NCBI GenBank assembly: GCA_937871435.1
Contig: CALMQM010000075.1
Coordinates: 1-57,880 of the forward strand
Source: an uncultured Bacteroidota bacterium
GTDB taxonomy: Bacteria; Bacteroidota; Bacteroidia; AKYH767-A; 2013-40CM-41-45
Direction: 5' to 3'
DNA: 57,880 bases
The notes beneath the pieces are model-generated. The model saw nothing but the letters and a program-made list of their open reading frames with translations, searched no databases and was not told where the DNA came from. Of the stretch, positions 37,196 to 49,501 are shown in pieces; the first letter of the stretch is position 1, and every line of letters begins with the position of its first letter. Made by a program: the position numbers and the translations under genes.

Positions 37196-38440
37196 ATGAA
37201 TGCAGAAAAAATAGACGTGCTTGTTATTGGCGCAGGACCGTCAGGCACCATCGCAGCATCAATTGTGAACAAAGCCGGATTCAAAGTCAGGATTGTTGAG
37301 AAGATGAAATTTCCACGTTTTGTAATCGGAGAAAGTTTGCTCCCCCGGTGCATGGAAGCTCTCGACGAAGCCGGTTTCCTGGATGCGGTGAAAGCCAAAG
37401 GTTTTCAGGAAAAATTCGGAGCTAAGTTTGTTCGTAACGGAGATGTTTGTGATTTCAGTTTTGAAAGCCAGTTCACCAAAGGATGGAACTGGACCTGGCA
37501 GGTACCTCGTGCAGAGTTTGATAAAACTTTAGCCGATACAGTCGAATCCATGGGCGTCCGGATTGATTACGAAACAACAGTTACAGCAATAGAATTTGTG
37601 AATGGTGAATCATTCACAACTGTAGTCGATAAAAATGGAAAGGAAGAAAAAATCCATGCCCGTTTTATTATCGATGGAAGTGGCTATGGCCGTGTTATTC
37701 CTCGTTTGTTCAACATGGAGAAGCCATCCAGTTTGCCTTCGAGAAAAGCATTGTTCACTCACATGAAAGATACAAATCGTTCCATGGCAGATGAACCAAA
37801 CCGAATTACAATTGTAGTTCATCAGCCCGGCGTATGGATCTGGGTGATTCCATTTTCGAACGGACTTACTTCTGTGGGCTTTGTGGGTGATCCTTCTTTT
37901 TACAGCTCTTTGCAAGGAACTCCTGAACAACAATTGCGCACCCTGATTGAATCTCAGCCGGAAATAAGTAAACGCTTCGCCGGAGAAGAAATGGCATTCG
38001 AACCTCGTGTGCTTGAATCCTGGTCAGCTACAACAGATAAATTTTACGGAGAAGGATTTGTGCTTACAGGTAATGTAACTGAGTTTCTTGATCCTGTATT
38101 TTCGTCAGGTGTGACACTCGCGAGCGTGTCCAGTCAGCTTGCCGCTCATCTTGTAATCCGCAAACTGAATGGAGAAGAAATTGATTGGGATGCTGAATAT
38201 ATGCGGAAGATGATGAAAGGTGTGAACACCTTCCGGACGTATGTCATGGGTTGGTATGATGGAACTCTCGATAAAATATTCTTTTCCGAAAAACAAGATG
38301 TGCAGATAAAAAATCAAATCTGTTCTGTACTCGCCGGATATGTCTGGGACGATACAAATCCATATGTGCAGAATCATGAAAAAGCTTTGCAACGTTTAGT
38401 GCGTGTTATAGAATTGGAGAAAACAATAAACATGAATTGA
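37196..38440 (+). CDS. FAD-dependent halogenase-like oxidoreductase
   Basis: A 414-residue flavoprotein. The FAD fold VLVIGAGPSGTIAA (8-21) is followed by FPRFVIGESLLP, the signature found in flavin-dependent halogenases. The halogenase motif WxWxIP is present as W214-I-W216-V-I218-P219, and a KFGAKF stretch (73-78) supplies candidate active-site Lys residues. Flexirubins are often chlorinated on the aryl ring, so chlorination of an ACP-bound or finished polyene is the best guess. A ring hydroxylase of the same fold cannot be excluded. No flavin reductase gene is next to it. Confidence 0.83.
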   Translation: MNAEKIDVLVIGAGPSGTIAASIVNKAGFKVRIVEKMKFPRFVIGESLLPRCMEALDEAGFLDAVKAKGFQEKFGAKFVRNGDVCDFSFESQFTKGWNWTWQVPRAEFDKTLADTVESMGVRIDYETTVTAIEFVNGESFTTVVDKNGKEEKIHARFIIDGSGYGRVIPRLFNMEKPSSLPSRKALFTHMKDTNRSMADEPNRITIVVHQPGVWIWVIPFSNGLTSVGFVGDPSFYSSLQGTPEQQLRTLIESQPEISKRFAGEEMAFEPRVLESWSATTDKFYGEGFVLTGNVTEFLDPVFSSGVTLASVSSQLAAHLVIRKLNGEEIDWDAEYMRKMMKGVNTFRTYVMGWYDGTLDKIFFSEKQDVQIKNQICSVLAGYVWDDTNPYVQNHEKALQRLVRVIELEKTINMN

Positions 38441-38447
38441 TTCTGCT

Positions 38448-39059
38448 GTGCCTGAGAAAATTGTGATAGAACGATCTGTGTTGCTGGAAAAGAACAAAGC
38501 CTTTCTGAATGGAAACCTTTTGTTTGAATTTTCTCAGCCTGACAACAGCGCATTCCTGACTGCTTTGTACAAGCATCTGGAAATAAATTATCCGCGTTTT
38601 TACAAAATGGACAACATGTGTAAACTCGGGTTTTTAGCAGCTGAACTGTTGTTACACGATTCATCCGCTTATACCGGATATAAAAAAGAAGACGTTGCCA
38701 TCATTTTGCAGAACGAAAATTCCTGTCTGGATACAGATCTCCGGTACTATGAAACTGTTGCTGAAATTGCAAGTCCGGCTTTATTCGTTTATACATTACC
38801 CAATATTCTAATAGGTGAGTTGTGCATACGATTTGGCTTCAAAGGAGAAAGTATTTTTTTTCTTAATAAAAAAGGGGAAACAGGGGAGATGTTTGATTAT
38901 ATAAATCACCTGTTAGAAAATGATCTGGCACAAACATGTCTTTGCGGCTGGGTGGATTATCTGGATGAGCAGTACAAAGCTGTTTTACTTTGGGTCGGAA
39001 AAAACAGGAATGGAGAATTGTTTACGTTGAATACATTAGACAAATTATACAATCAGTGA
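38448..39059 (+). CDS. Truncated ketosynthase-like protein without nucleophile
   Basis: A 203-residue protein beginning at a GTG 8 bp after the flavoenzyme gene. The middle resembles the N-terminal half of a ketosynthase: a MCKLGFLAAELLLHD helix, then EIASPALFVYTLPNILIGEL, the position where ketosynthases have SPxxFxxTxxNxxAG. Where the active Cys should follow there is only FFLNKKGETGEM. The C-terminal half of a thiolase fold is absent. This is the layout of the short ketoacyl-synthase-like (chain-length-factor-like) subunits seen in aryl-polyene clusters, so a non-catalytic partner of one of the intact ketosynthases is likely. The family assignment is moderate. Confidence 0.65.
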   Translation: MPEKIVIERSVLLEKNKAFLNGNLLFEFSQPDNSAFLTALYKHLEINYPRFYKMDNMCKLGFLAAELLLHDSSAYTGYKKEDVAIILQNENSCLDTDLRYYETVAEIASPALFVYTLPNILIGELCIRFGFKGESIFFLNKKGETGEMFDYINHLLENDLAQTCLCGWVDYLDEQYKAVLLWVGKNRNGELFTLNTLDKLYNQ

Positions 39060-39060
39060 A

Positions 39061-39321
39061 ATGGAAAAACTCATGCACGATCTGAAAGTTCAGATCATCG
39101 CTCAGCTCAATTTGCAGGACCTGACACCGGAAGATATCGGAGACGATCAGGCTCTGTTCGTGGAAGGTCTTGGCCTCGATTCCATCGATGCTTTGGAATT
39201 GATTGTATTGTTGCAACAACAATACAAAATCAAACTTTCAAATGCCGAAGAAGGACCCAAAGTTTTTCGCTCCGTTCGTACCATGGCTGAATACATCACT
39301 GCTCATCAACCGAAAGCCTAG
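39061..39321 (+). CDS. Acyl carrier protein 2
   Basis: An 86-residue ACP with attachment Ser41 in GLGLDSIDALELIVLL. The helix II and III pattern is normal. It differs clearly from ACP 1 and sits just ahead of KS 3 with a 3-bp gap, suggesting that each ACP is paired with a different ketosynthase. Two ACPs are the usual number in aryl-polyene clusters, one often loaded with the starter and the other with extender units; which is which cannot be told here. Confidence 0.9.
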   Translation: MEKLMHDLKVQIIAQLNLQDLTPEDIGDDQALFVEGLGLDSIDALELIVLLQQQYKIKLSNAEEGPKVFRSVRTMAEYITAHQPKA

Positions 39322-39324
39322 TGC

Positions 39325-40527
39325 ATGCAAAATCCTGATGTTTTTGTAGCCGGTGTTGGTGTCATTTCCGCTTTGGGAAAAGACAGGGATGAAAATGTAT
39401 TTGCTCTTCAATCAGGTAGAAGCGGAATTGGGCCAATTTCTCTTTTGAAGACTATGCATAGAAATACTTATCCCGTAGCGGAAGTCAGGTATGCGAATGA
39501 AGAGCTCGAAAAATTAACCGGATTTACTTCAGGAATATCCAGGACAGCATTACTCAGTTGCATGGCAGCAACAGAGGCTATGCACCACGCCGGAATTCCT
39601 ACTCAGCATTCTTTTCGTATCGGATTTGTCTCCGCAAATTCTGTAGGAGGTATGGATAAGTCCGAAGATTTTTACGAAGCTTTTCATGATGATTCTACAA
39701 AAGGAAATCTTGAACAGGTGATTCATCATGAATGTGGAAGTGTGACAGAACTCGTTGCAGATAAACTTGGCATTCGGCATTTTGTTAGTACAATCAGTAC
39801 GGCTTGTTCTTCCTCTGCTAATGCAATTTTTCATGCAGCACGTTTAATCAAAAACAATATTCTTGATATCGTGATTGCAGGCGGTACGGATTCACTCACC
39901 CGATTTACCCTGAATGGTTTCAGCACCCTGATGATTCTGGATACATCTCCTTGTAAACCATTGGACGAAAATCGCAAAGGATTAAATTTGGGGGAAGGGG
40001 CAGGATATCTTGTCCTGGTTTCAGAAAATGCGCTGAAACAACTGAAGGCAACTCCACTTTGTAAATTGTCCGGATACCACAACGCGAATGACGCGCATCA
40101 TCAAACAGCTTCTTCTCCCGAAGGCATCGGTTCTTTTCTCGCGATGCAGGGAGCATTGAACAAAAGCGGAATCCAGCCACGTGACATCGGATATATCAAT
40201 TTGCATGGAACCGGCACTCAAAACAATGATCAATCTGAAGGAACAGCTATCCGTCGGGTGTTCGGTGACTCATTACCGAAATTAAGTTCTACCAAAACAT
40301 TTACCGGACATACTCTTGGTGCAAGCGGCGGCATTGAAGCAGTGTATTCAGTATTGTCACTGAAACACGGATATATTTATCCAAATCTAAGATTTGAAAC
40401 TCCGATGAAGGAAATTGCCTTACTGCCTGAAACGGAGTTTTCCATTGATCCTTCCATTAAACATGTATTGTCCAATTCCTTCGGTTTCGGAGGTAATTGT
40501 ACGTCATTGATATTTTCTGCCTGCTGA
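39325..40527 (+). CDS. Beta-ketoacyl synthase, intact (KS 3)
   Basis: A 400-residue FabF-type ketosynthase with full catalytic residues: Cys161 in ISTACSSSANAIF, His294 in INLHGTGTQNND and His329 in TFTGHTLGASGGIEA, with Lys324. It is the most canonical ketosynthase of the cluster and the likeliest main elongation enzyme. Its stop overlaps the start of the next gene as TGATG, which in type II systems is typical for a KS-alpha followed by its chain-length factor. Confidence 0.92.
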   Translation: MQNPDVFVAGVGVISALGKDRDENVFALQSGRSGIGPISLLKTMHRNTYPVAEVRYANEELEKLTGFTSGISRTALLSCMAATEAMHHAGIPTQHSFRIGFVSANSVGGMDKSEDFYEAFHDDSTKGNLEQVIHHECGSVTELVADKLGIRHFVSTISTACSSSANAIFHAARLIKNNILDIVIAGGTDSLTRFTLNGFSTLMILDTSPCKPLDENRKGLNLGEGAGYLVLVSENALKQLKATPLCKLSGYHNANDAHHQTASSPEGIGSFLAMQGALNKSGIQPRDIGYINLHGTGTQNNDQSEGTAIRRVFGDSLPKLSSTKTFTGHTLGASGGIEAVYSVLSLKHGYIYPNLRFETPMKEIALLPETEFSIDPSIKHVLSNSFGFGGNCTSLIFSAC

Positions 40528-41591
40528 TGCGTACTGATTTGTATATACTTTCATCCGCGGCTGTTTCTCCACAGGAATCATTTGAACTGAAGGATAGATA
40601 TGAAAACATTCGCGAATATCAGGGTACAAAACTCACGTGTATTGAACCTGACTATAAAAATATTCTCGATCCGAAGTTAATCCGGAGAATGAGCAGGGTC
40701 ATTCGTATGGGAGCGGCTACTGCTTTGCAATGTATGAAGTCTGCGAACAGACTTGAGGTCGATGGAATCATTACAGGAACTGCGTATGGTTGTCTCGAAG
40801 ATACGATCACATTCTTGAATCGTATGGTCGGGAATAAGGAGGAGATGCTTACTCCAACAGCATTCATTCAGTCTACACACAATACCGTCGCTGCACAAAT
40901 TGCATTGCTTCTTAAATGCAATGCGTATAACAATACATTTGTGCAGAAATCTTTTTCGTTCGAGGCAGCATTGACGGATGCCGTCTTATTGTCGCGGGAA
41001 ATGGAAAATTGTGTCATTCTTACCGGCGCTGTGGATGAGTTAACCGAAACCAGTCATGCGATTATTTCGCGTTTCAATAAATACAGAGAAAATGTTGTTT
41101 CATCCAAAATGTGTGAATCTCCGGCAGCTGGAACCATGGCCGGCGAAGGCGCTGCATTTTTTCTGTTGAGTAATCAAAATCATTCGGGAGCAATTGCCAG
41201 ACTTGACGGAATGAGTATGCTTTATGATCCCGGCAAAATTGAAGACAGGAAATACTGGTTGAATACTTTCCTGGATGAAAATGATAGCAGGAGGGAAGAC
41301 ATTGGCTTAATTTTAGTTGGAAGAAATGGTGATAGTTCTCACGATCAGCTGTATCCCGAATTGGAATCTGTATTCTCTCCTCTCGCAAATTGTTTTACCT
41401 ACAAAAATTTCTGCGGAGAATATCCGACATCAACTTCCTTCGCTATGTGGATGGCAACAGAAACCATTCGCACAGGCACATTGCCATTGTACAATCAACC
41501 TTTTAATCTCCAGGATGAGAAGAAAAAAATACTGTTGCTCTCTTCAGATATACACGGACATAATTCTGCATTCCTTCTATCCTCATGCTGA
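40527..41591 (+). CDS. Chain-length-factor-like ketosynthase lacking catalytic residues
   Basis: A 354-residue thiolase-fold protein that pairs with KS 3. The start at the ATG overlapping the KS 3 stop is preferred over a TTG 30 bp upstream. The fold is recognisable from IITGTAYGCLEDT, TPTAFIQSTHNTVAAQIA and TMAGEGAAFFLLS. The nucleophile position reads FVQKSFSFEAALTDA, with Phe/Ser instead of Cys, and neither catalytic His motif (HGT, GHxxGA) is present. This fits a KS-beta/chain-length factor, which forms a heterodimer with KS 3 and sets polyene length. It overlaps the next gene by 7 bp. Confidence 0.8.
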   Translation: MRTDLYILSSAAVSPQESFELKDRYENIREYQGTKLTCIEPDYKNILDPKLIRRMSRVIRMGAATALQCMKSANRLEVDGIITGTAYGCLEDTITFLNRMVGNKEEMLTPTAFIQSTHNTVAAQIALLLKCNAYNNTFVQKSFSFEAALTDAVLLSREMENCVILTGAVDELTETSHAIISRFNKYRENVVSSKMCESPAAGTMAGEGAAFFLLSNQNHSGAIARLDGMSMLYDPGKIEDRKYWLNTFLDENDSRREDIGLILVGRNGDSSHDQLYPELESVFSPLANCFTYKNFCGEYPTSTSFAMWMATETIRTGTLPLYNQPFNLQDEKKKILLLSSDIHGHNSAFLLSSC

Positions 41592-42358
41592 ATTTTAGAA
41601 TTGCCAACCTGATTCTTCTTTTTGTTCTCATGCTGATGGGTGTGCTATATAACCATTCCCCATTTTCACGTGCATATTTTCTTCTGCCTTTTTCAGGCTG
41701 GTCAATACTCGTATTTTATGGTTGTTATTTTATTCATTCCGGATTTTTCATCAGGATAAAATGCAAAGAGGAAACGCGGGAAAAACTGATGGCGCTTACT
41801 TTTGATGATGGTCCGGACGAAAGGAATACTTCCATGATACTCGATATCCTGAAAAAAACGGAATCAACTGCAACATTCTTTTGTATCGGACACAATATTC
41901 CCGGGAACGAATCCGTCTTGAAAAGAATACACATGGAAGGACATACAATAGGAAATCATAGTTATTCACATGCATTCCTGTTTGATCTGTTTTCTAAAAG
42001 GAAAATGCAGAAGGATCTTGAACAGATGGATAATTTGGTTGTTCAGATTCTTGGCAAACGGCCTAAATTATTTCGCCCGCCATATGGTGTAACAAACCCG
42101 GCAGTACGCGATGTTATCCTCCGGGGGAATTATTTTCCGGTTGGTTGGAGTGTACGTTCAATGGATACTGTGGCAAAAGAGAAAAGTAAATTCCTGGACA
42201 AAATATTCCGTTCCTTTGAACCCGGAGCAGTCCTGCTTTTTCATGATACATCTTCCATAACTTTACAAAGTCTGGAAGAAGTTATTTTAGCCGGACAACA
42301 AAAGGGATTCAGGTTCGTTTCTGTGGATCGTTTATTTCAAATTGAAGCATATGCGTAA
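41585..42358 (+). CDS. NodB-type polysaccharide deacetylase, membrane-anchored
   Basis: A 257-residue carbohydrate esterase family 4 protein. Two N-terminal hydrophobic helices (about 6-22 and 36-55) anchor it in the membrane. The NodB domain holds TFDDGP (72-77; Asp74 and Asp75), the metal His pair GNHSYSH (His125, His129) and RPPYG (164-168). These enzymes remove N-acetyl groups from amino sugars, and deacetylase genes recur in aryl-polyene clusters, where the acceptor may be a glycan or glycolipid. Here the substrate is unknown. It is embedded in the run of overlapping genes, so its product is co-expressed with the transport proteins. Confidence 0.85.
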   Translation: MLNFRIANLILLFVLMLMGVLYNHSPFSRAYFLLPFSGWSILVFYGCYFIHSGFFIRIKCKEETREKLMALTFDDGPDERNTSMILDILKKTESTATFFCIGHNIPGNESVLKRIHMEGHTIGNHSYSHAFLFDLFSKRKMQKDLEQMDNLVVQILGKRPKLFRPPYGVTNPAVRDVILRGNYFPVGWSVRSMDTVAKEKSKFLDKIFRSFEPGAVLLFHDTSSITLQSLEEVILAGQQKGFRFVSVDRLFQIEAYA

Positions 42359-42986
42359 GTTCTTTCTCATAGTTATTTTCGCGCTGATTTCAGAATTAGC
42401 ACTAAGTCAGATCCCTGGCTATAGTGAAATTGGTAATCTGGAGGTGTTTAAAAAAAAGTTTACTGAAGCTGCAAATAAAACTTCTTCGATAAAAAGTGAT
42501 TTTACACAGGAGAAGAATATGAGTATGCTCTCTGAAAAACTGGTTTCCAAAGGAAAATTCGAGTATAAAAAAGAAGATAAGGTGAGAATGGAATATTTAT
42601 CCCCATTCAAGTACCTGATGATCATCAATGGCTCGAAAGTCTATATACGGGACGGGCAGAAAGAGAATACACTTAGCACGAGCAGCAATAAAATATTCAA
42701 ACAAGTATCCGGAATTATGCTCGATTGTGTAAGCGGCTCTATGCTTACCAATCCGGATTTTAAAATTAAAATATTTGAGAACAAAACAGATTACCTGATC
42801 GAAATGATACCGGTGTCGAAAGGCATCAAAGACTTCTTTAGTAAAATTCATGTCATTGCCGACAAATCCGATTATGGTGTTAACCGTGTTGAACTGATAG
42901 AGTTATCCGGCGATGTTACTGTGATGCATTTCACCAACAAACAACTGAATACGAATGTTCCGGATACGGATTTTTATTTACATTAA
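42351..42986 (+). CDS. LolA-like outer-membrane lipoprotein carrier
   Basis: A 211-residue periplasmic protein starting at the ATG at 42351 (MRKFFLIVIF), which overlaps the previous stop; a TTG 9 bp upstream is less likely. A signal peptide is followed by the LolA fold, with characteristic segments SSIKSDFTQEKNMSML, SKGKFEYKKEDKVRMEYLSP and DFYLH at the end. LolA-type carriers ferry lipidated molecules across the periplasm. Aryl-polyene clusters carry a dedicated copy that probably moves the polyene lipid from the inner membrane exporter to the outer membrane. The downstream lipoprotein gene begins inside this one (32-bp overlap), another sign of tight coupling. Confidence 0.86.
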   Translation: MRKFFLIVIFALISELALSQIPGYSEIGNLEVFKKKFTEAANKTSSIKSDFTQEKNMSMLSEKLVSKGKFEYKKEDKVRMEYLSPFKYLMIINGSKVYIRDGQKENTLSTSSNKIFKQVSGIMLDCVSGSMLTNPDFKIKIFENKTDYLIEMIPVSKGIKDFFSKIHVIADKSDYGVNRVELIELSGDVTVMHFTNKQLNTNVPDTDFYLH

Positions 42987-43578
42987 TCTGTTGCTGATTT
43001 TCGTTGGATGCAAATCGGAATTCGCCTCATTGAAAAAGGTGGAGGCGGTCTCTTGTCCGGTTGAAAAATTCAAACCTGTTGTTCCATTCGCGATATATCA
43101 GGCAAGTGTAGATGTGTTGAATAAACACCTTAGCGGTTTGTTAGTCATCAAAACAATGGATGACAACAGTGTGCATACTTTATTCCAAAGTGAAATGGGA
43201 CTGACTTATTTCGATTTTGTCTGGTCCAACGATAATCATTTTGAAGTTATCAATGTAATCAAACAGATGAACAAGAAGGCTGTGATTAATACCCTGCGGA
43301 AGGATTTTGAATTGATGCTGATGAAAAATATGGATTTGAGTAATGTTGAAACGTTATCTGATTCAACCGGATTATTCAACAAAATACTCAAGGGGGATGA
43401 GATTATCTATATAGTTACTGATTCCGATTGTGTACAATTAAAAAAAATAATGAGTGCAACTTCGCGTAAATCAAAAGTGACTTTAACAATGAATACTCCG
43501 TCTAATGTTCCGGATTCAGTAAACATTCATCATGAAAAATTTAAATTTATCATTTCATTAAAAAAAATTGAGCAGTAA
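42955..43578 (+). CDS. Small lipoprotein of the polyene export module
   Basis: A 207-residue protein with a signal peptide and lipobox LIFVGCKSE, so it should be lipid-anchored, most likely in the outer membrane. The remaining sequence has mixed strands and helices with no recognised enzyme motif (for example FDFVWSNDNHFEVINVIKQM). Its reading frame begins inside the LolA-like gene and ends in a TAATG overlap with the next, so it is firmly part of the operon. By position it corresponds to the small lipoprotein next to lolA-like genes in aryl-polyene clusters and may receive the carrier's cargo, as LolB does for LolA. This is inference. Confidence 0.75.
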   Translation: MFRIRIFIYINLLLIFVGCKSEFASLKKVEAVSCPVEKFKPVVPFAIYQASVDVLNKHLSGLLVIKTMDDNSVHTLFQSEMGLTYFDFVWSNDNHFEVINVIKQMNKKAVINTLRKDFELMLMKNMDLSNVETLSDSTGLFNKILKGDEIIYIVTDSDCVQLKKIMSATSRKSKVTLTMNTPSNVPDSVNIHHEKFKFIISLKKIEQ

Positions 43579-43943
43579 TGTTGTCTCCATCTTTTTATTC
43601 GCATCATTCAAGTGTCGTCGCCGGTGAAAAATTGACTACTACACTTGTCTTGCAATCTCAACATGAAATATTTAAGGGACACTTTCCCGGTATGCCGGTT
43701 GTTCCGGGAGTATGCATGATGGAGATGGTAAAGGAGCTGATGGAAGAAGTAATCGGAAAACATACACGATTGAAAAAATCTACCAATCTTAAATTTTTAC
43801 ATATTCTGGATCCTGGAACAAATCCTGAAATTCAGGCAGAGTTAAAAATTATTGAATCTCCCCCGGAAGTATCAGTATCAGCTAAACTCTTCTATTCTGA
43901 TATCACCTTTTTTAAAATGGATGCAAAATTTATCGTTGAATAG
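43578..43943 (+). CDS. 3-hydroxyacyl-ACP dehydratase-like hotdog protein 2
   Basis: A 121-residue hotdog protein with an intact FabA/FabZ-type active loop: GHFPGMPVVPGVCMMEM, with His35 and the acidic Glu49 at the usual 14-residue spacing. It is shorter than FabZ at both ends. It is the last gene of the long coupled run and may be the second dehydratase of the system, acting at a different chain length from the one at 33964. Its final ~20 residues end in KMDAKFIVE, shared by small hotdog dehydratases. Confidence 0.82.
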   Translation: MLSPSFYSHHSSVVAGEKLTTTLVLQSQHEIFKGHFPGMPVVPGVCMMEMVKELMEEVIGKHTRLKKSTNLKFLHILDPGTNPEIQAELKIIESPPEVSVSAKLFYSDITFFKMDAKFIVE

Positions 43944-44592: not shown

Positions 44593-44761
44593 ATGTCCTG
44601 CCTTAACATGATTTCAGCTGGACGGGTAAGTCACAATCATTATACACAAGAGTAATGAGTAAAGTGTTTTTCAATTTTGATTTTGGTTACTGGCGTTTCC
44701 TGAAAATAGATGTCCTGTAAACATGATTGTATTGATCCTTCACAGTGACTTACCCGACCAG
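44593..44761 (+). repeat. Interleaved inverted and direct repeats in the susC leader
   Basis: A 17-bp inverted repeat with one mismatch: CTGGACGGGTAAGTCAC (44618-44634) faces GTGACTTACCCGACCAG (44745-44761). Each arm is preceded by a copy of an ATGTCCTG-AACATGATT direct repeat (44593-44613 and 44710-44728). The outer arm ends about 45 bp before the susC start codon. This could be a pair of operator sites in opposite orientation or a long-range RNA stem. Confidence 0.75.
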
Positions 44762-48028: not shown

Positions 48029-49501
48029 ATGAAATTATCAATCATAAAATCAATTGTTCTCGGATCATGCCTGATGGCATTTGTCTCCTGTGAGAAGAAT
48101 TATCTCGATGTGAACAAAGATCCCAATCATCCGCATGTGCTTGTTCCTAAACAAATCTTGCCGGCTGCAATAGGTCATACCGCGTATGTGATGGGAAATG
48201 AGTACCAGGTTATCGGTGGTTATTGGGCTCAGTACTGGACTCAGGGTCCAACAGGAAATCAATACAATGTGTATGATCAATATCTGATTTCAAATACAAC
48301 ATTGGATCGGCCATGGTCTGATTTGTACTCCTCACCACTTACTGATTTTCAGGACATCATTCGTTTGAGCAGTGGTACGAACAGCAAGTATGAAGGAATA
48401 TCCTGCATCATGCAGGCCTATATTTACCAGGTGCTTACGGATTTACATGGTAGTGTTCCGTTCTCGGAAGCATTGAAAGCAGAGTCTGGTGTGTATGCTC
48501 CGCATTACGATTCACAGCAAAGTATTTACGATGGACTGATTCCTCTTCTCGACAGAGGTATTGCCGCCATCAATTCGTATGCCGGTGATGACATCTATCC
48601 ACAGGAAGATGACTTCATATACGGAGGTGATATGGATTTGTGGATTCGTTTTGCGAACACATTAAAGCTTCGCATTTACATGCGCCAGTCTGAGATTCGT
48701 CCGAATGTGGCGCAAGCCGGCATTCAGGCTATGGTGGCCAATGGAGATCAGTTTATCAGCGACGGGGAAGATGCTGCCATGTTGTTCTACGATGCAAACT
48801 TTAATCAGAATCCTCTTTACATGCAGATTGTTTCACTGGGATCATTTAATATTCTCGCCAGCAATACTGCATTGAACTTCCTGAGAAATAACAATGATCC
48901 CCGCGTGGATGTGTTTTACCGTCATGCAACTTCCGGTGACAGTGCCGGAACTCACAATGGTATCAATCAGGGTGAAGGAAAATTACCAGGATATGGAGGA
49001 CAAGATGTCGTTTCAGGCTGGTTCTCAAAACCAAGCTTTACTGTCGCCGGCCCTGAATCACCGGTTATCTTCCTGAGCGCGGCGGAAAGTTATTTCCTCC
49101 AGTCAGAAGCTGTCATCCGCGGCTGGATGCCGGGAGACGCGAAAGCTCTGTATGAAAGTGGTGTTACCGCTTCCTTTACTTATTGGGGATTGGATCCGGC
49201 CGAAGCTGCTACATACATCGCTCAGCCTGCAATAGCTTTCCCTGATGCCGGCACACAAGCCGACAAAATCAAATCTGTGATAACACAAAAGTGGATTTCC
49301 ATGTGCGGATCTGAGTGTGCTGAAGCGTGGAATGAGTGGAGAAGAACAGGCTATCCGGATTTCTTTGTGGTATCCGCAACTTCTCAAATCGGAAACAACT
49401 TCCCAAGCATCATTTTCTATCCGAATTCAGAACAAACCCTCAACCCGAATACACCTCCACAACATGTCATTACCGACAAAGTGTGGTGGGATGTGAATTG
49501 A
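48029..49501 (+). CDS. SusD/RagB family nutrient-binding lipoprotein (SusD-like_2)
   Basis: A 490-residue outer-membrane lipoprotein. Its signal peptide ends at Cys21 in MAFVSCEKNYLDVN, the usual SusD start. Helical TPR-like segments follow, with WAQYWTQGPTGNQYN near the N terminus and the family-typical AAESYFLQSEAVIRGW and KWISMCGSECAEAWNEWRRTGYP region towards the C terminus (quoted in parts: KWISMCGSECAEAWNEW). This is the SusD-like_2 branch, often found with SusC proteins that import peptides or unknown nutrients rather than starch. It caps the SusC barrel and captures the ligand. A strong terminator follows directly. Confidence 0.93.
   Translation: MKLSIIKSIVLGSCLMAFVSCEKNYLDVNKDPNHPHVLVPKQILPAAIGHTAYVMGNEYQVIGGYWAQYWTQGPTGNQYNVYDQYLISNTTLDRPWSDLYSSPLTDFQDIIRLSSGTNSKYEGISCIMQAYIYQVLTDLHGSVPFSEALKAESGVYAPHYDSQQSIYDGLIPLLDRGIAAINSYAGDDIYPQEDDFIYGGDMDLWIRFANTLKLRIYMRQSEIRPNVAQAGIQAMVANGDQFISDGEDAAMLFYDANFNQNPLYMQIVSLGSFNILASNTALNFLRNNNDPRVDVFYRHATSGDSAGTHNGINQGEGKLPGYGGQDVVSGWFSKPSFTVAGPESPVIFLSAAESYFLQSEAVIRGWMPGDAKALYESGVTASFTYWGLDPAEAATYIAQPAIAFPDAGTQADKIKSVITQKWISMCGSECAEAWNEWRRTGYPDFFVVSATSQIGNNFPSIIFYPNSEQTLNPNTPPQHVITDKVWWDVN

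Follow-up and report, generated by a model that had tools for sequence, protein, structure and literature searches.

A susC leader as a possible stem-clamped antisense RNA against a second susC gene

We analyzed a 57,880-nucleotide stretch of DNA (the window) from contig C75 of an uncultured Bacteroidota bacterium (genome G000) and found that the leader of one susC gene, susC-B, carries a long inverted repeat around a conserved block that is complementary to the start of a second gene, susC-A. SusC-A is the sole other full-length SusC of this genome, and the same holds in G009, a relative with a matching leader. Our folding and pairing models suggest that the susC-B leader is probably an RNA, clamped by the long-range stem P1, that pairs with the susC-A mRNA and blocks its translation. 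On the broader proposal, in which the leader of one susC targets another in trans as an antisense RNA, was born by inverted duplication and forms a stem-clamped, porin-replacing switch, we are evenly divided. The antisense reading fits the data better than a pair of operators, an inverting promoter or a switch that acts only in cis. Table 1 lists the features of the locus.

Table 1. Features of the susC-B leader and downstream genes (window positions)
Feature	Position	Strand	Basis or remark
Direct repeat, left copy ATGTCCTGCCTTAACATGATT	44593..44613	+	Sequence; missing in G009
Left arm, 5' strand of long-range stem P1	44613..44634	+	Repeat search; compensatory changes versus G009
P2 hairpin TCATTAT...GTAATGA	44637..44658	+	Predicted in the folds of G000 and G009
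Antisense block extension, reaching over the start and first codons of SusC-A	44662..44680	+	AAGTGTTTTTC pairs with GAAAAACACTT
Antisense core TTTTGGTTACTGGCGTTTCCTGAAAA	44681..44706	+	Complementary to the SusC-A 5'UTR, G000:C23:47868-47895; nearly unchanged in G009
P3 apical hairpin GGCGUUU[CCUGAAAAU]AGAUGuCC, loop within the antisense core	44692..44715	+	Predicted folds, both genomes
Direct repeat, right copy ATGTCCTGTAAACATGATT, within the spacer	44710..44728	+	Only the ATGnCCTG part conserved
Right arm, 3' strand of P1	44745..44766	+	Ends ~40 nt 5' of the susC-B ATG
susC-B, SusC/RagA TonB-dependent porin, 1069 aa	44806..48015	+	Owner of the leader
susD-B, partner lipoprotein (SusD-like_2)	48029..49501	+	

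The original prediction described a 17-bp inverted repeat with one mismatch and arms 110 bp apart, and this repeat is present. The core arms, CTGGACGGGTAAGTCAC and GTGACTTACCCGACCAG, lie in an 862-bp intergenic gap upstream of a susC/susD pair and can be extended to 22 nt with 91% complementarity. Among 200 dinucleotide shuffles of this gap, no 17-bp repeat with at most one mismatch arose (the maximum was 16). The core of the second arm ends 44 nt ahead of the susC-B ATG, in agreement with the predicted distance of about 45 bp. The arm motif is found nowhere else in the genome, where 1-mismatch matches stay at the control level, and a whole-genome motif search returned no further exact copy of CGGGTAAGTCAC.

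Each arm was also said to be preceded by a copy of a direct repeat. This is correct, with the second copy lying inside the spacer and the two copies differing by 2 nt in length. This half of the symmetry is weak, because a gapped direct repeat of this kind arises in 69 of 4000 Markov-1 sequences (1.7%) and the left copy is not found in the G009 leader. The arms are thus unlikely to be due to chance, and the direct repeats are marginal in this respect. Folds of partial transcripts contained no alternative pairing through the left copy. The direct repeats appear incidental, and we rejected them as a defined element on the grounds of their chance rate and lack of conservation.

We searched 61 relatives with the leader by BLAST and recovered one matching leader, in G009, and one further place each in G000 and G009, which is the start of susC-A. 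G009 belongs to another genus of the same family. Its leader precedes the orthologous susC-B (SusC-B proteins 76% identical), and the genes upstream of the leader differ between the two genomes. The G009 arms are 19 nt long, 89% complementary and 114 nt apart. Two arm pairs have changed on both sides with pairing kept, from C-G to U-A and from U-A to C-G (alignment columns 7/151 and 20/138), and 0 of 30 base pairs of a covariance model are broken between the genomes. When this model was run against 395 genomes of the class, only G000 and G009 were recovered; the design is known from two genomes, one of which is a metagenome bin. SusC-B orthologs outside the family are at most 51% identical and lack a comparable leader. 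The original prediction named two grounds for abandoning it, namely no recurrence of the motif and no conservation in orthologous leaders. Only the first applies, because the G009 leader, which is orthologous, has kept the architecture.

Two other groups of candidates were set aside. A pattern scan of genome contigs beyond the two G009 contigs gave six scattered matches in unrelated genomes, which we judged to be chance. A 17-bp inverted repeat in G006, located before a SusC frame that lacks an N-terminus (L085 1176-1325, reverse complement), consists of ATACGAAT repeats and is unrelated.

The predicted fold of the + strand has the same outline in G000 and G009, comprising P1, a small P2 and P3, with an apical P3 hairpin of the common form GGCGUUU[CCUGAAAAU]AGAUGnCC. 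Fold z-scores of -5.7 (G000) and -4.9 (G009) are due to P1; without it, the spacers score -0.5 and -1.3 and fold no better than shuffles. The compensated arm changes and the shared predicted fold support one of the two originally suggested explanations, a long-range RNA stem. Sequences 5' of the left arm contain a candidate promoter that is at best one mismatch off consensus, and the right arm of G009 is followed by a T9 run. Rfam covariance models gave no riboswitch or leader family match in the window, and no terminator was recognised there.

The best-conserved part of the leader is a 38-nt block of the spacer rather than the arms: 36 of its 38 positions are conserved between G000 and G009, as compared with 24/47 and 11/30 in its flanks. 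In both genomes, the + strand RNA of this block would be complementary to the SusC-A 5'UTR and start-codon region. Its reverse complement reads TTTTCAGGAAACGC(nn)GT(TT)AACCAAAA, and the full element has exactly two copies each in G000 and G009 and none in any other of 11 family genomes. One copy is in the susC-B leader and the other lies in sense orientation directly before the SusC-A ATG (G000:C23, G009:C12). Within a 28-nt match, both leaders share the same 2-nt deletion (GTAACC versus GTTTAACC), and a single site of the core shows leader-target covariation, being A in both for G000 and T in both for G009. The similarity also covers the generic TAACCAAAA and reaches into codons. The alignments suggest that the spacer probably derives from a susC-A 5' end by inverted copying, a putative copy in which the susC-A promoter has been lost and, in G000, the start codon as well.

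Computed pairing energies single out the same target. With a model that leaves out kissing pseudoknots, the net cofold energy of leader and susC-A is -22.2 kcal/mol in G000 and -17.7 kcal/mol in G009, and the next-best gene starts reach -3.7 (G000, n=107) and -3.8 (G009, n=23). Specificity between genomes is modest, in that each leader also pairs well with the susC-A of the other genome, almost as well as with its own.

The size of the unit (about 150 bp) and its terminal inverted repeats are also what a MITE-like small mobile element without function here would show. However, there is one copy per genome, always ahead of the orthologous susC-B, no target-site duplication was seen around it, and conservation is found inside the unit and not at its ends. 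We regard a mobile element as extremely unlikely.

We compared the target locus across the family. At least eight genomes of the family share synteny at the susC-A locus, with the same divergent beta-barrel gene alongside. Several of these loci carry a promoter of the form TTTG-N21/22-TAnnTTG, whose end lies about 44 nt 5' of the ATG, and TAACCAAAA before the start. The leader match sits 3' of this promoter and its -7 box, and therefore within the transcribed 5'UTR. TTTTCAGGAAACGC occurs in the susC-A 5'UTR solely in the two genomes with the antisense leader; the matching 14 nt are absent from other family members that have the same SusC-A locus but no leader. The SusC-A proteins of G000 and G009 are 41% identical (over the half compared), and the G000 protein is nearer to those of G003 (62%) and G007 (54%). 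Their susC-A 5'UTRs nevertheless match at 27 of 28 nt, with an alignment score of 58, whereas no other pair in the family exceeds 37. Such likeness of the 5'UTRs between diverged proteins is not what free drift should produce, but it is what selection for a match of leader and target should. SusC-A itself looks like a fast-diverging or replaced porin at a fixed syntenic site.

The 38-nt block could be conserved as DNA, and we weighed a shared operator in which a transcription factor at TTTTCAGGAAACGC co-regulates both susC leaders and the arms form a second pair of sites. The TTTTCAGGAAACGC core (TTTC-AG-GAAA) is nearly palindromic, and its opposite orientations in the two leaders would be tolerable for a DNA site. 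A regulon for it is lacking, however, because exact copies of the core number just two in the genome and the six copies with 1 mismatch are all within coding ORFs. The extension of similarity into codons and the position of the susC-A site beyond the -7 box also speak against an operator, and the shared 2-nt deletion suits a bulged RNA duplex better than a rigid site. We consider such an operator unlikely. The other explanation suggested at the outset, a two-site operator with DNA looping, is not supported: its motif does not recur, and conservation is highest in the spacer block and not in the arms.

We return to RNA pairing. In the proposed mechanism, the leader would be transcribed together with, or just ahead of, susC-B, and its RNA would be closed by a P1 of 17-22 bp enclosing hairpin P2 and the irregular stem P3. 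The apical loop of P3 and its flanks would be antisense to the susC-A 5'UTR, start codon and first codons. We infer that pairing in the cell would mask the entire initiation region of susC-A and keep ribosomes from loading on the susC-A mRNA. Expression of porin B would therefore lower porin A, and B would replace A. The original prediction had the stem controlling translation of the SusC downstream. The stem is supported, but since the block is antisense to the genome's other susC, its action is most likely in trans on susC-A and not in cis alone.

A leader acting only in cis, with P1, P2 and P3 as an RNA switch for susC-B, would account for the three-part predicted shape and compensated arms that the two genomes share, and would make the similarity to susC-A a relic of the leader's origin. 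A relic, however, would not hold 36 of 38 positions while the flanks drift. It also leaves unexplained why two strongly diverged susC-A genes have the same 5'UTR solely where the leader is present. We find a purely cis-acting role improbable.

Invertible promoters of Bacteroides (Jiang et al. 2019, cited in PMC10994844) likewise have inverted repeats, spaced by about 110 bp, ahead of a gene for a surface protein. By analogy, a recombinase might flip the spacer between the arms, and the window would show the OFF orientation. The length, spacing and placement of the arms resemble those of invertons, the spacer reads like the 5' end of a susC in reverse, and the genome encodes four tyrosine recombinases. 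Flipping the spacer in silico argues against this model, because neither genome then shows a TTTG-N18-23-TAnnTTTG promoter at up to one mismatch, whereas susC-A controls score. Both genomes are in the same orientation, the arms are not repeated elsewhere, and the window contig has no tyrosine recombinase gene (the search covered recombinases of the tyrosine type). Invertibility, moreover, needs no match to the 5'UTR of a second gene. We judge inversion to be very unlikely.

Listeria SreA, a terminated SAM riboswitch, is a 5' leader that acts in trans on another mRNA. The susC-B leader is proposed to share this action, but it differs from SreA in having no riboswitch family match and no recognised terminator.

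Closer parallels to the antisense reading come from the same phylum. FopS sRNAs of Bacteroides thetaiotaomicron pair near the start codon of a susC mRNA and block its translation, and the RRM protein RbpB relieves this repression (PMC11697453). Our computations likewise predict, in both genomes, that the leader pairs across the 5'UTR and start codon of susC-A. FopS/GibS RNAs are 65-70 nt long, multicopy and mostly intergenic, with a short shared 5' seed (R1/R1'), whereas the present RNA would be about 155 nt long, single copy, clamped by a long stem and complementary to the whole 5'UTR, and it is situated in a leader that belongs to a paralogous susC. Its single copy in G000 and G009 and its lack of an Rfam match argue against membership of the FopS/GibS family, as that family is described. 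G000 encodes one small RRM_1 protein (L099 1471-1716), a candidate RbpB-like RNA-binding protein by analogy. DonS-type PUL RNAs in Bacteroides are also antisense to the 5' part of susC (PMC7366714). DonS, however, is cis-antisense and divergent to its own target, whereas the leader on C75 would act in trans on a target on C23.

That SusC porins are controlled post-transcriptionally has become known only recently, from gut Bacteroides, where separate sRNA genes are responsible. If our proposal is true, porin cross-regulation would be written into the mRNA itself, with the leader of one porin silencing its rival, and this in Bacteroidota only distantly related to Bacteroides. The leader would also be a clear case of an antisense regulator that apparently arose by inverted duplication of the start of its target. 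The pairing between leader and susC-A is explicit enough for a compensatory-mutation test.

Upstream of the susCD pair, the window (37196-43943) encodes ketosynthase-like proteins, LolA and a FabA-like domain protein, a set of genes that resembles an aryl-polyene or flexirubin pigment cluster. The G009 assembly is interrupted inside the start of susC-B, where contigs C24 (end, L058) and C7 (start, L006) overlap by roughly 120-150 nt and their ends differ as T8 versus T9. This difference is probably strain variation at the poly-T run, and local heterogeneity is also compatible with it. The G009 sequence 5' of the left arm contains two palindromes that are not in the window, TTTGATAGCTCTTATCAAA and ATGTAGTACACCTACAT (L006, about 315-385), which are possible operator sites of another regulator.
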